DNA of 64,000 bases. Origin: Arthrobacter citreus. GTDB lineage: Bacteria; Actinomycetota; Actinomycetes; Actinomycetales; Micrococcaceae. The DNA is taken from assembly GCF_009192745.1 (NCBI RefSeq), contig NZ_VTFV01000004.1, positions 248,001 through 312,000 on the forward strand. Reading direction: 5' to 3'. The notes below the pieces were generated by a model. It had not been told where the DNA came from. It ran no database searches and worked only from the letters and a program-made list of their open reading frames with translations. A program made the position numbers and the translations under genes. This document shows positions 2,655 through 6,288 of this stretch, piece by piece (position 1 is the first letter of the stretch; each line of letters begins with the position of its first letter).

Positions 2655-4217
2655 CTAGTTCGCGGCGACCGGTGCCTGAACCAGCGGGAGCACCGTGTCC
2701 GCTGCCAGAATGGCCTGGATCTGTCCCGCGGCAAGGGGCCTGCTGAAGTAGTACCCCTGACCGTTTCGGCAGCCCAGCACCAGCAGGTCCGCCGCCTGGT
2801 CAAGGGTTTCGATCCCTTCGAAGACCGCTTCCATGCCGGCAGCACGGATCAGGCCGTGGACAGCATCCACGAACTGGCGCTGGCCGGGGTCCGCACTGAT
2901 GTCCCTGATGAGGCTGCGGTCCACCTTCACGGTCTGGACGGGCAGCCGGCGCAGGTAGCTGATGGAGGAGTAACCGGTGCCGAAGTCGTCGATTTCAATA
3001 CCCACACCGAGCGCATTCAGCGACTTCAGGGAGTACATCTCTACGTCTCCGCCGCTGACGAAGGCGCTCTCGGTAATCTCGATGATCAGCCGGGAGGCCT
3101 GTATCCCGGTCTCCCGGAGGTCCTGCCGGACATGGTCCACCAGGTCCAGCCGCTGCAGTTCCATCGCGGAGAGGTTTACCCGGACCTGGAAGTCCTCGTC
3201 CAGATCCAGCTGCTCTTCCCAGTGCGCCAGCTGCTCCAGCGCGGCGCGCAGGACCCAGCGGCCAAGGTCCAGGATGATGCCGGTTTCCTCGGCGATCGGA
3301 ATGAAGTCGTCCGGCATAATGAGCCCGCGCTGCGGATGCTGCCAGCGGACCAGTGCCTCAACCCCGCGCATCCTGCCTGTGGCAAGTTCGACGACTGGCT
3401 GGTAGTCCAGGAAGAGTTCGTTGCGACCCAGGCCTTCGCGCAGTTCGGCAGCCATCTCCCGGCGAAGCTGCCGGGCGTAGAGCATCACCGGTTCGAACGC
3501 CTTGCTCTGCCCGCGGCCGGCCTCCTTGGCTGCGTACATGGCCGTGTCGGCACGCACCATGAGGTCCTCGGCCCGTTCACCTGCCAGCGCCGCGTGGACT
3601 CCGATGCTGGCACGAGGCCACACATCGATCTCCTCCACCCGGATGCATTCGCCCAGTGCCTCATGGATTCGGGCAGCCACACCCATGGCTGTGCTCAGCC
3701 CCGTTTCTGGAAGCAGGACCGCAAACTCATCTCCGCCCAGCCGGGCGACCGTGTCGCCGCGGCGGACTGCCCACCTGAGGCGGCGGGCAACTTCTACGAG
3801 GACCTGGTCCCCGGTCAGGTGGCCAAAACTGTCGTTGATGTCCTTGAAGGCGTCAAGGTCGATCATCAGGACCGACGGGCGTGCTCCCCCTGCCTCGGCG
3901 GCGAGCAGTTCTGCCTCGATCTCATGCATCAGGGCCGTCCGGTTCGCCGTGCCCGTCAGCGCATCGCTCATTGCCATCCGCTGCATCTGGCGGTGGGCTG
4001 CCTGCAGCTCGCGTGTGCGGGATTCGACCCGTTCCTCGAAGTCCTGGTAAACGGAGTTCAGCTCCTCGGCTAGAAGATTGATTCCGGTAATTACCGCGTC
4101 CACGTCATCGCGTTTGGGCGAGGTGCGGATCCTGGTGCTCAGGTCTCCGGCAGCAATTCGGACTATGCCGTCCACTACCTGCTGAAGCCTTGGGTCTCCG
4201 GCTTCAGGGTCCGTCAT
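2655..4217 (-). CDS. Bifunctional GGDEF/EAL cyclic-di-GMP enzyme
   Basis: Soluble protein of 520 residues with a HAMP-like N-terminal segment (about 1-60), a short coiled coil, a GGDEF domain (GGDEF at about 161-165, with an RxxD inhibitory-site pattern RRGD just before it) and an EAL domain (EAL at about 287-289). The EAL half keeps the metal and catalytic pattern: VNLSA, EITES, IDDFGTGYSS, KVDRSLI, FEGIET and GQGYYFSRP. Both making and breaking c-di-GMP therefore look possible. I chose the ATG that shares one base with the upstream gene's stop (TGATG), so the enzyme appears translationally coupled to the STAS-like protein. There is no membrane segment, so the sensory input probably comes through that partner. 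Confidence 0.93.
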   Translation of the reverse strand: MTDPEAGDPRLQQVVDGIVRIAAGDLSTRIRTSPKRDDVDAVITGINLLAEELNSVYQDFEERVESRTRELQAAHRQMQRMAMSDALTGTANRTALMHEIEAELLAAEAGGARPSVLMIDLDAFKDINDSFGHLTGDQVLVEVARRLRWAVRRGDTVARLGGDEFAVLLPETGLSTAMGVAARIHEALGECIRVEEIDVWPRASIGVHAALAGERAEDLMVRADTAMYAAKEAGRGQSKAFEPVMLYARQLRREMAAELREGLGRNELFLDYQPVVELATGRMRGVEALVRWQHPQRGLIMPDDFIPIAEETGIILDLGRWVLRAALEQLAHWEEQLDLDEDFQVRVNLSAMELQRLDLVDHVRQDLRETGIQASRLIIEITESAFVSGGDVEMYSLKSLNALGVGIEIDDFGTGYSSISYLRRLPVQTVKVDRSLIRDISADPGQRQFVDAVHGLIRAAGMEAVFEGIETLDQAADLLVLGCRNGQGYYFSRPLAAGQIQAILAADTVLPLVQAPVAAN

Positions 4218-4636
4218 CAGGCTCTGCCCTTGAGCCAGTCCAGTGCCTGGGCAGCAGAGGAGAAGTACCGTGCAGGACAAGCCGGGAGGTCTCCACCAAG
4301 GAGGAAGTTTGCGATAACCCTATCCACCTGGCTGGTGCCCAGGACAGCCACAGACGAAACCGACCGAGCTGCCGCGAACACACTTCTGGCACCGCGTGTA
4401 ATGGCTTCGACCCCCGTGACGTCAAGCAGCAACGGCCTCGGCCCTGTCTGAGCCAGAGGATTAAACTCTGCAGCGGCCGCTGCCGCCATAGGCCCGGTAA
4501 TGACGCGGCCTGGGGGCAGCGTGACTCTTACGTAGCCAGTACAGTCAGTGACTTGCACCCGCTTGTCGTTCGAGATTTCGCTGCCATCGACCGGACCTTC
4601 TGCAGCTCCGCTCACGATCTCCTGTTTCACCGCCAT
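4217..4636 (-). CDS. STAS-like / DUF7793-type protein
   Basis: Small cytoplasmic protein of 139 residues. A beta-rich stretch (VQVTDCTGYVRVTLPPGRVI) is followed by LLLDVTGVEAITRGAR and an alternating strand/helix C-terminus ending in ALDWLKG, which fits STAS/SpoIIAA-like folds and the DUF7793 group seen in Arthrobacter relatives. Its stop codon overlaps the start of the GGDEF-EAL gene by one base, so the two are translated together. The likely role is a partner or input module for the c-di-GMP enzyme; that is inference from coupling. I cannot identify a phosphorylatable serine in the canonical anti-anti-sigma position with confidence. Confidence 0.75.
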   Translation of the reverse strand: MAVKQEIVSGAAEGPVDGSEISNDKRVQVTDCTGYVRVTLPPGRVITGPMAAAAAAEFNPLAQTGPRPLLLDVTGVEAITRGARSVFAAARSVSSVAVLGTSQVDRVIANFLLGGDLPACPARYFSSAAQALDWLKGRA

Positions 4637-4837: not shown

Positions 4838-5872
4838 TCAAAAATTCACTGATTTAATCGAGTCCGCGAGTTCCCTGGCCTGCTCTGCGCGCATCACGGC
4901 ACCAACGTTTTCGAAAAGCTCCATGCCAGTAGTGGCCTGCTCGCGCGCCGCCTCGGTCTCCCCGGCTGCGGCGAGAATCCGGGCATACAGGATCCGGGCG
5001 TCGCCTTCGCTGAGGGGAGCCATAGCCTCCGCCCGCTCCATAATGCCGGACATTTTCAACTTCGCTTCAGGCAGTGACCCAGTCAGAAAACACCAGTGAG
5101 CGCGGATAACGTCGATGTCGAGCTCGTCCTGCGGTGTCCCCCCGCTAATTGACATCGCCATCTCGGCCCGCTCGATGCACTGGAGCGTAGCCGGCTCAAC
5201 CAGATTCGCATTGAGCCTCATGAACGCCGATGCCTTATTGAAGATGGCCCACAGATTCAGGTCCCTGCTGGGCGAAAAGCATGTGGCTGCCTTGTCGTGG
5301 TACTCAGTAGCGTCCTTGCTCCGACCCAGGAGAAACGCCACGTTTCCGATAGACCAATAAGCCCTGCCTGCCCGGTCCGGTTCAGTGTTTGCATCAATAA
5401 GGCGGCAGAGATTCTCCGCCTCACGCCAGGCGTCGTCGAGATGCCCGCTCTCGGCCAAAACGGCGACGAGAACCTGCTGGGCCTCAAGCTTGCCTTTGCT
5501 TCCGTATCCAGTCTCCGGGAACTCCAGCGTGGCTTCCCGAGCCACCTCCAGTGCTTCCGGCAGCTGCCCAAGAGCCCTGAGTCCCGCTGACCGCAGCGCA
5601 TTCGCCTTGGCAGCCAGCTCCGGATCGCGTGAGGTGAGCGGGTGCTCCGAGAGTGATTCTGCTGTCTCAACAAGATCACTAATATCACCCAGTTGCCGCT
5701 GGCATTTGGCAAGGAGATACATCATGCGCCACCAGCCGGCGTCATCACCGCGGGAACCCGCTTTTTCGGCGGCAGCCTTCGTGTGATTTATGACGGCTGA
5801 GTATTCGCGCTGCTCCCACAGCTGCCTCGCTTTGTACTCATGAAGTATGAAGTCATCTGTCGTCAAAGCCAC
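4838..5872 (-). CDS. TPR-repeat protein, possible peptide receptor
   Basis: All-helical protein of 344 residues made of TPR-like helix pairs over most of its length, with no signal peptide, membrane segment or DNA-binding domain. Examples of repeat signatures are AGLRALGQLPEALEVAREA, VLAESGHLDDAWREA, IGNVAFLLGRSKDATEYHDKA and ILAAAGETEAAREQA. Asn-containing helices (YWSIGNVAF, WAIFNKASAF) recall the groove Asn residues that hold peptide backbones in Rap/PlcR/AimR proteins, though this is a visual resemblance only. The start is GTG. It is divergent from a gene for a 46-residue exported peptide 227 bp away, which is the main reason to suspect an RRNPP-like receptor. It could instead be an ordinary TPR scaffold. 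Confidence 0.8.
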   Translation of the reverse strand: MALTTDDFILHEYKARQLWEQREYSAVINHTKAAAEKAGSRGDDAGWWRMMYLLAKCQRQLGDISDLVETAESLSEHPLTSRDPELAAKANALRSAGLRALGQLPEALEVAREATLEFPETGYGSKGKLEAQQVLVAVLAESGHLDDAWREAENLCRLIDANTEPDRAGRAYWSIGNVAFLLGRSKDATEYHDKAATCFSPSRDLNLWAIFNKASAFMRLNANLVEPATLQCIERAEMAMSISGGTPQDELDIDVIRAHWCFLTGSLPEAKLKMSGIMERAEAMAPLSEGDARILYARILAAAGETEAAREQATTGMELFENVGAVMRAEQARELADSIKSVNF

Positions 5873-6099
5873 GGCACTTTCTCGCTCCCGCCCATAGGCC
5901 CATTTCAGGACACCTTACGTTCCATTGTGCGCTCCGATCCCGTTTTGGTCTAAGCATTACGCAGTACGCGCGCGGCTTCGTTCAACCGCCCCCTGCCTGC
6001 CGTCCAAGAATTGAGCCCACTTGGAAAGATAAATAGGAAATTTGTTAGGTACGATATGCCAGTCAGCAAATGGGCTGGACACATAACCTAGGAGCACAA

Positions 6100-6240
6100 A
6101 TGAAGAAGCTTGGCGTATCCGTTCTTCTGGCCGCCGCGATTGCAGCCGTTGGCGTGGCAGCACCCGCGAACGCAGCGCCGTCCTTCGGGAACGGCGGAGG
6201 CAGCACCGTTCAGCCGCTGATCGGCAACTGGCCGTACTAG
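6100..6240 (+). CDS. 46-residue exported micropeptide, candidate pheromone precursor
   Basis: Short gene with an AGGAG ribosome site 5-9 bases before ATG. The product starts MKKLGVSVLL, has a hydrophobic core rich in Ala and Val, and an Ala-x-Ala type signal peptidase site (APANAAP) near residue 26. About 20 residues would remain outside: a Gly/Ser-rich stretch and a C-terminus ending in NWPY. This is the architecture of Phr/PapR-type pro-peptides: Sec signal, short spacer, C-terminal effector. It is followed within 10 bases by a strong intrinsic terminator, so it is a monocistronic unit. It is divergent from a TPR protein. An alternative is a small secreted antimicrobial or wall-associated peptide. 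Confidence 0.72.
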   Translation: MKKLGVSVLLAAAIAAVGVAAPANAAPSFGNGGGSTVQPLIGNWPY

Positions 6241-6248
6241 GCCTCAGA

Positions 6249-6288
6249 AAAACCGGGCAGAGCTCATCGGAGCCCTGCCCGGTTTTTT
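6249..6288 (+). terminator. Intrinsic terminator after the micropeptide
   Basis: Twelve-base-pair stem (AAAACCGGGCAG with CTGCCCGGTTTT) continued after one A/C mismatch by a GCTC/GAGC extension and an ATCG loop, ending in a run of six T. It starts nine bases after the micropeptide stop, which supports that short gene being expressed on its own. Confidence 0.9.

Follow-up and report, generated by a model that had tools for sequence, protein, structure and literature searches.

The pairing of a TPR gene with a divergent ORF coding for a 46-residue peptide was confirmed as real in a 64,000-nt stretch of DNA (the window, G000:C5:248001-312000, from a source genome of 3.55 Mb). The locus is best read as part of an RRNPP-like peptide signalling family in Actinomycetota, a Rap-like branch of which would control c-di-GMP. 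It is considered with good confidence that the 46-residue product is the precursor of a signal in an RRNPP-like system, and that the TPR protein is its receptor, acting most likely on the STAS and GGDEF-EAL partners encoded next to it, with c-di-GMP as output. A broader proposal is somewhat favoured, namely an undescribed 'WP pheromone' family of Actinomycetota, in which an HTH-TPR branch would act on transcription and a Rap-like branch would gate, via the STAS-like partner, the sole diguanylate cyclase detected in the genome. The observations behind these readings are the gene architecture, its conservation, selection on the coding sequence, tandem copies of the peptide core and linkage to c-di-GMP genes.

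The locus and its conservation in the genus

The features of the locus are listed in Table 1. A Pfam scan of the TPR protein returned TPR matches only, with TPR_14 above its cut-off and the other TPR models below theirs. No HTH was detected by Pfam and no signal peptide was visible by eye. The peptide ORF (translation MKKLGVSVLLAAAIAAVGVAAPANAAPSFGNGGGSTVQPLIGNWPY) terminates in PLIGNWPY, and its signal peptide, predicted by eye to be cut after ANA at residue 25, is conserved in alignment A2. The hairpin downstream of the ORF has a folding energy of -30.9 kcal/mol (z -6.0), and none of 200 shuffles was equally stable; a simple terminator scan recognized no more than a five-pair stem at this place. 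The preliminary description of a TPR protein devoid of a DNA-binding domain, and of a micropeptide with a ribosome site, a Sec signal and a strong terminator, was thus borne out. The divergent region contains short blocks that are conserved among eight relatives and gave no match to the sigma-70 consensus. Downstream of the TPR gene and on the same strand, the STAS and GGDEF-EAL genes follow after a gap of 201 nt, within which a weak terminator-like site is found. The ATG of the GGDEF-EAL gene overlaps the stop codon of the STAS gene. The STAS-like protein matched DUF7793 in Pfam (E 5.8e-13) and the SpoIIAA-like model below its cut-off (4e-4).

Table 1. Features of the locus, in window positions
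Feature	Position	Strand	Evidence and remarks
HTH-less TPR receptor candidate	4838..5872	-	344 aa, GTG start; Pfam and homologues
Candidate propheromone ORF, 46 aa	6100..6240	+	Sequence; conserved in 29/29 genus genomes
Ribosome-binding site AGGAG	6090..6094	+	Sequence; similar purine-rich sites in relatives
Putative Sec signal peptide	6100..6174	+	MKK, hydrophobic core and APANA-A, by eye
Putative pheromone core IGNWPY	6220..6237	+	Matches tandemly repeated core of other genera
Intrinsic terminator of peptide gene	6247..6288	+	Hairpin folding energy vs shuffles
Shared divergent promoter region, 227 nt	5873..6099		Between TPR gene and peptide ORF
STAS/SpoIIAA-like (DUF7793) protein	4217..4636	-	Pfam; conserved neighbour
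GGDEF-EAL c-di-GMP enzyme	2655..4217	-	Pfam; HAMP match below cut-off

The TPR gene and a divergent, exported-looking peptide were found as a pair in all 29 genomes of the window's genus. In each of them the ORF has 43-53 codons, starts with MKK or similar and lies 174-251 nt from the receptor match. The peptide profile gave one strong match per genome (E <=1.6e-13), the next best match in any genome being at 0.0115. Beside the HTH-less homologue, a second, related TPR gene is present elsewhere in all 29 genomes, in two pieces in G005. An alignment of 27 peptides, from which two identical or near-identical rows were omitted, revealed an invariant Pro in the core and a Trp that is replaced by Phe in three sequences. 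The last residues differ by lineage (NWPY, NWPL, WWPN, MWPHG, IWPRNV, LFPIIF). A conserved C-terminus had been predicted from the window alone: the core is indeed conserved, and tandemly repeated in other genera, but the 'defined' tetrapeptide NWPY did not stand, as the fixed part is limited to [W/F]P with lineage-specific residues around it. Selection on the coding sequence is seen in pN/pS values of 0.13-0.42 for the peptide ORF in six groups of relatives, four of which are from the window's genus.

Named relatives include Arthrobacter luteolus, A. gallicola, A. pullicola, A. koreensis and A. gandavensis. The precursor is present at 39 of the 44 named loci, and three of the remaining five have less than 120 nt of upstream sequence. 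One record titled Vibrio cholerae strain 35D harbours an Arthrobacter-type receptor/precursor locus (L183); this assembly is most likely mislabelled or contaminated.

Distribution of the receptors and linkage to c-di-GMP genes

Relatives of the TPR protein were identified in 221 of 395 genomes of the family, belonging to 17 of 32 genera (E 1e-5), and at E 1e-10 in 25 of 396 genomes of the order sample (9 of 109 genera), three of these 25 belonging to two genera of one other family (f17). Neither phage records queried with the window protein nor viral contigs searched with profile A1 contained a relative. Distant and weak HTH-TPR relatives occur on 33 Streptomyces plasmids; no WP ORF was seen beside the HTH-TPR gene in the three of them that were inspected.

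The pairing was analysed in 135 receptor loci, composed of the 29 HTH-less loci of the genus, 17 top family matches, 30 loci obtained by searching 30 genomes chosen for other genera, and 59 further upstream stretches of listed matches (60 were fetched and one duplicate was dropped). Separate counts were kept for the HTH-TPR loci of the genus itself and for the named loci. A divergent small ORF with a Trp-Pro (WP) core was found at 123 of the 135 TPR or HTH-TPR loci, in Micrococcaceae and one further family. A strict rule was also applied, by which the ORF had to be divergent, 30-190 codons long, with a start 60-800 nt away and a Shine-Dalgarno sequence, and the peptide had to display two basic residues near its start, a hydrophobic stretch and [WF]P at most 18 residues from its end. 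Positive loci numbered 112 of 135, against 11 of 2,700 dinucleotide shuffles and none of 135 in a control on the TPR strand over an equal length of the same stretches. When window tiles were scanned, 1 of 170 was positive, and it was the peptide ORF itself. The 23 strict-scan failures include eight loci having a signal-type precursor with a weaker site or a longer ORF (L078, L080, L085, L090, L091, L092, L095, L120) and three with leaderless precursors (L086, L087, L089), the latter being part of the 123. No divergent WP ORF was detected within about 900 nt at 12 loci (L070, L084, L093, L094, L111, L150-L152, L155-L157, L165). L111 borders a contig end, and the same genome has a fitting precursor (L229) at the end of a different contig; in family f17, L150-L152 are negative and the other three of six loci positive.

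With a threshold of E 0.01, the family-wide search with peptide profile A3 gave matches in 174 of the 395 genomes. This profile served solely as a site finder, because weak matches (E above about 1e-5) lie partly inside long frames and resemble other signal peptides. Among twenty profile-found sites, inspected over up to about 2.5 kb on each side, 14 have a TPR gene and two are at contig ends. Precursors with a WWP core and no TPR gene within the stretch were seen at L214, L219, L220 and L221, all from g10. The core of L214, VGWWPH, is identical to that of the receptor-linked precursor of its genome (L076).

A quick tree of 84 receptors was calculated without mixture model and with a midpoint root, long branches being flagged and the genus's HTH-TPR genes left out. 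All 20 HTH-TPR rows fell in one group (SH-aLRT 88), of which 12 are accompanied by a [VI]G[NDE]WP[DHN] core, four by other WP cores and four by none. The HTH-less receptors form the other clades, and their cores are more varied, including two separate WWP groups.

Downstream of the HTH-less receptor and on the same strand, a GGDEF-EAL relative is encoded at 29 of 29 loci of the genus. Among L060-L106, GGDEF or STAS was found downstream at all 27 HTH-less loci: 16 have a GGDEF-EAL relative within the 1.5-kb flank, and nine of the other 11 have GGDEF about 4.5 kb downstream, the last two being L067, where the STAS gene is located where the stretch stops, and L075, where GGDEF lies behind the tandem partner receptor. 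Altogether the receptor/c-di-GMP gene link was observed in eight genera (g1, g8, g10, g23, g24, g26, g29 and g32). At HTH-TPR loci, no GGDEF-EAL relative was found within 1.5 kb (0/20) or within 5 kb (0/4). The c-di-GMP neighbour highlighted in the preliminary description is therefore kept with most HTH-less receptors and was not found beside HTH-TPR receptors.

It could still be that the peptide is the pheromone of the TPR receptor and that the c-di-GMP genes merely happen to lie nearby, the receptor acting elsewhere, for instance on the HTH-TPR paralogue. This reading is regarded as rather improbable. It would fit the 201-nt gap with its weak terminator-like site and also one HTH-less subclade (g10/g19), in which no c-di-GMP gene is present in the 5 kb downstream of L215, L216 and L223 or, for L222, over the 2.5 kb to the contig end. 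However, DeoC, on the other flank, was not found outside the window's genus, and general synteny hence does not easily explain a link that is kept in eight genera and lacking at the 20 HTH-TPR loci. Moreover, exactly one GGDEF match per genome was obtained in 29 of 29 genus genomes, each time with the coordinates of the gene at this locus; one further EAL protein is encoded elsewhere in 15 of the 29. Taken with the conserved pairing and the conserved core, this conserved neighbour supports the initial idea that receptor and peptide form an RRNPP-like pair, the output of which could plausibly be the c-di-GMP enzyme.

Additional genes were noticed in a few annotated loci. In one annotated locus each of g32, g26 and g23 (L234, L238 and L240), the receptor gene is separated from the STAS/GGDEF genes by one for a family-2 glycosyltransferase. 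A protein with CBM5/12 modules is encoded on the opposite strand in the g32 and g23 loci (L234, L240), and that of g32 shows a glycosyl hydrolase 18 match below its cut-off.

Tandem and leaderless peptide cores

The set L001-L106 comprises 69 precursors, of which 26 contain 2 to 8 copies of the core, a count which leaves out L021 (a false pair resulting from its FPIIFP end) and L222, a five-copy precursor. All 29 precursors of the window's genus are single-copy. The arrays consist, for example, of VGNWPD, eight times in L095 and five and four times in L088 and L090, and of VG[DN]WPH, eight and six times in L081 and L083. Further examples are TGNWPN (four copies, L106), KIGNWPD or KVGNWPD (three, L064 and L069), IGDWPN (three, L067), IGWWPN (two, L068), GGLWPY (two, L102-L105) and, in the second family, VGGSWPT (three, L147). 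Tandem duplicates of HTH-less receptors occur in g32 (L120/L114, L144/L131, L139/L064, L075/L123); each receptor has its own precursor, and the cores differ (IDDWPH or IDNWPN vs [VIS]GNWP[DG]).

Leaderless ORFs were found beside the second TPR gene of the genus. In the source genome and in G002 this gene begins with an HTH-like segment and adjoins a gene which we take to be rsmA. HTH_31 or HTH_3 was detected in four of five HTH-TPR proteins scanned; Pfam sees no HTH in the paralogue of the source genome (L002, G000:C5:358215-359195). The latter lies outside the window and has a divergent 21-codon ORF ending in VGDWPD, representing a second candidate cassette. Over the genus, 15 of 29 genomes have a leaderless ORF of 19-23 codons divergent from the HTH-TPR paralogue; its first part is variable and its end is always VG[DN]WPD followed by the stop codon. 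No such ORF was found at the paralogue in the other 14 genomes, two cases looking decayed. Apart from these 14, receptors lacking the peptide are a minority (the 12 of 135 loci mentioned above, one of them at a contig end), and the prediction that TPR homologues come paired with it was largely upheld. The same VG[DN]WPD core stands in 4-8 copies in precursors from other genera that have a signal peptide. The sharing of a hexapeptide between a leaderless 19-mer and an eight-copy signal precursor, both beside HTH-TPR receptors, is taken as strong evidence that the hexapeptide region represents the ligand.

This sharing of the six-residue core between leaderless 19-mers and eight-copy arrays also argues against the peptide being a secreted bacteriocin or matrix component with the TPR protein as its regulator or immunity factor. 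The signal peptide, the Gly/Ser/Thr-rich spacers and the polysaccharide-type genes linked in single loci of g32, g26 and g23 would agree with such a role, but no signal peptide is visible in the receptor and an HTH is frequent among its paralogues, and this explanation was judged unlikely. Equally set aside, as highly improbable, was a short ORF acting in cis as a leader peptide for attenuation with no secreted signal: a strong terminator directly 3' of the ORF would suit it, but the ORF is divergent from the TPR gene, has its own terminator and a conserved signal peptide, and is conserved on core residues and not on codons. Indeed, comparison of the six core codons between copies of one array gave 296 synonymous vs 12 non-synonymous differences, or 245 vs 12 when one array per group (16) was considered, and all 12 non-synonymous differences were D to N changes in L081.

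The cores appear to follow the receptor clades, an effect that is modest and for which relatedness is only partly controlled. Within the genus (n = 27), receptor and core distances were correlated with a Mantel r of 0.25 (p 0.002), and of 0.22 (p 0.009) given the signal-peptide distance. Of the two, core and signal peptide, the latter showed the tighter correlation with receptor distance (r 0.57), a pattern that relatedness by itself would produce; over 68 loci, the values were r 0.23 and 0.28. A correlation of receptor position ~316 with WW cores was set aside as independent evidence, because in the alignment the NW sister clade already displays small or hydrophobic residues at this position.

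Proposed mechanism and comparison with known systems

From these observations we infer a path of export, trimming, import, binding and output. The 46-residue precursor would be exported by Sec and its signal peptide removed, after which proteolysis would release a short C-terminal peptide around GNWPY. Re-entry may proceed through an oligopeptide ABC permease; eight SBP_bac_5 proteins are encoded in the source genome. The peptide would then bind in the groove of the cytosolic TPR protein which, being HTH-less and Rap-like, would target other proteins, the STAS-like protein and the GGDEF-EAL enzyme being the likeliest. The peptide level would thereby determine c-di-GMP, as well as a polysaccharide synthase that is linked in some genera, so that the cassette may control biofilm-type behaviour. 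The HTH-retaining paralogues would read VG[ND]WPD-type peptides and regulate transcription.

If this holds true, WP pheromones would tie c-di-GMP and the synthesis of polysaccharides directly to quorum sensing by peptides, and would add a second example in which an HTH-less receptor of the Rap-like kind coexists with HTH-bearing paralogues. The system is widespread in Arthrobacter relatives among the soil bacteria, its codes are readable since many precursors repeat the core, and the natural paralogues are open to the study of specificity. Because no GGDEF protein other than the enzyme of the locus was found in the genome, tests of the output would have a simple background.

In the accessible part of the RRNPPA survey, the named subfamilies are from Bacillales and Lactobacillales and the loss of the HTH in Rap is given as a derived state (PMC9765709). 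RRNPP_detector, according to the available part of its description, was run on Firmicutes and viral genomes only (PMC10075063). A review of actinobacterial quorum sensing, in the portion at hand, lists LuxR-type genes for Arthrobacter (PMC4748050), and the accessible text of a 2026 review places RRNPP in Gram-positive bacteria and 'other Firmicutes' (PMC13220807). No earlier description of a WP-peptide system was found among the matches listed in the literature covered (titles and abstract openings and, for several searches, part of the hits, with preprints and most subscription papers outside the scope).

RRNPP-type cytosolic peptide receptors are described from Firmicutes. Their traits are recognizable here: a cytosolic TPR-repeat receptor, an HTH that is present in most subfamilies and lost in Rap (as in the HTH-TPR paralogues vs the window protein), an adjacent small exported-looking precursor (123 of 135 loci), and a short conserved peptide at or near the C-terminus (the [W/F]P core). 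At the sequence level the TPR profile reached RapF with E 0.35 only, behind eukaryotic TPR proteins, and the best solved-structure match of the HTH-TPR paralogue L090 was PlcR (E 0.003), through the HTH alone. Given this weak link, the claim is limited to a system that seems to work like RRNPP systems and does not extend to membership.

The HTH-TPR paralogues share with PlcR-PapR and NprR-NprX an HTH_3-type plus TPR architecture; however, the TPR part is unmatched, and the core and the architecture of the precursor differ. With ComR-ComS and Rgg-SHP they have in common, in the window's genus, leaderless short precursors beside HTH-TPR receptors and a Trp-containing core, the WP core presumably resembling XIP. 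The phylum, the divergent orientation and the WP(D/N/H) end set them apart. Rap receptors act on protein partners, and Rap-Phr of Bacillus resembles the window locus in its cytosolic HTH-less TPR receptor and in a precursor that is predicted to be exported. In contrast to Rap-Phr, the present system is found in Actinomycetota, shows no significant sequence match, has a divergent and not a downstream precursor with a WP core, and is linked to STAS and GGDEF-EAL genes. Rap systems with repeated propeptides have been described, and the accessible part of that study gives several pheromone copies per precursor for Phr3T and Phr105 (PMC11343458). Those belong to Rap systems of Bacillota, whereas the precursors described here carry up to eight copies of VGNWPD-type cores.
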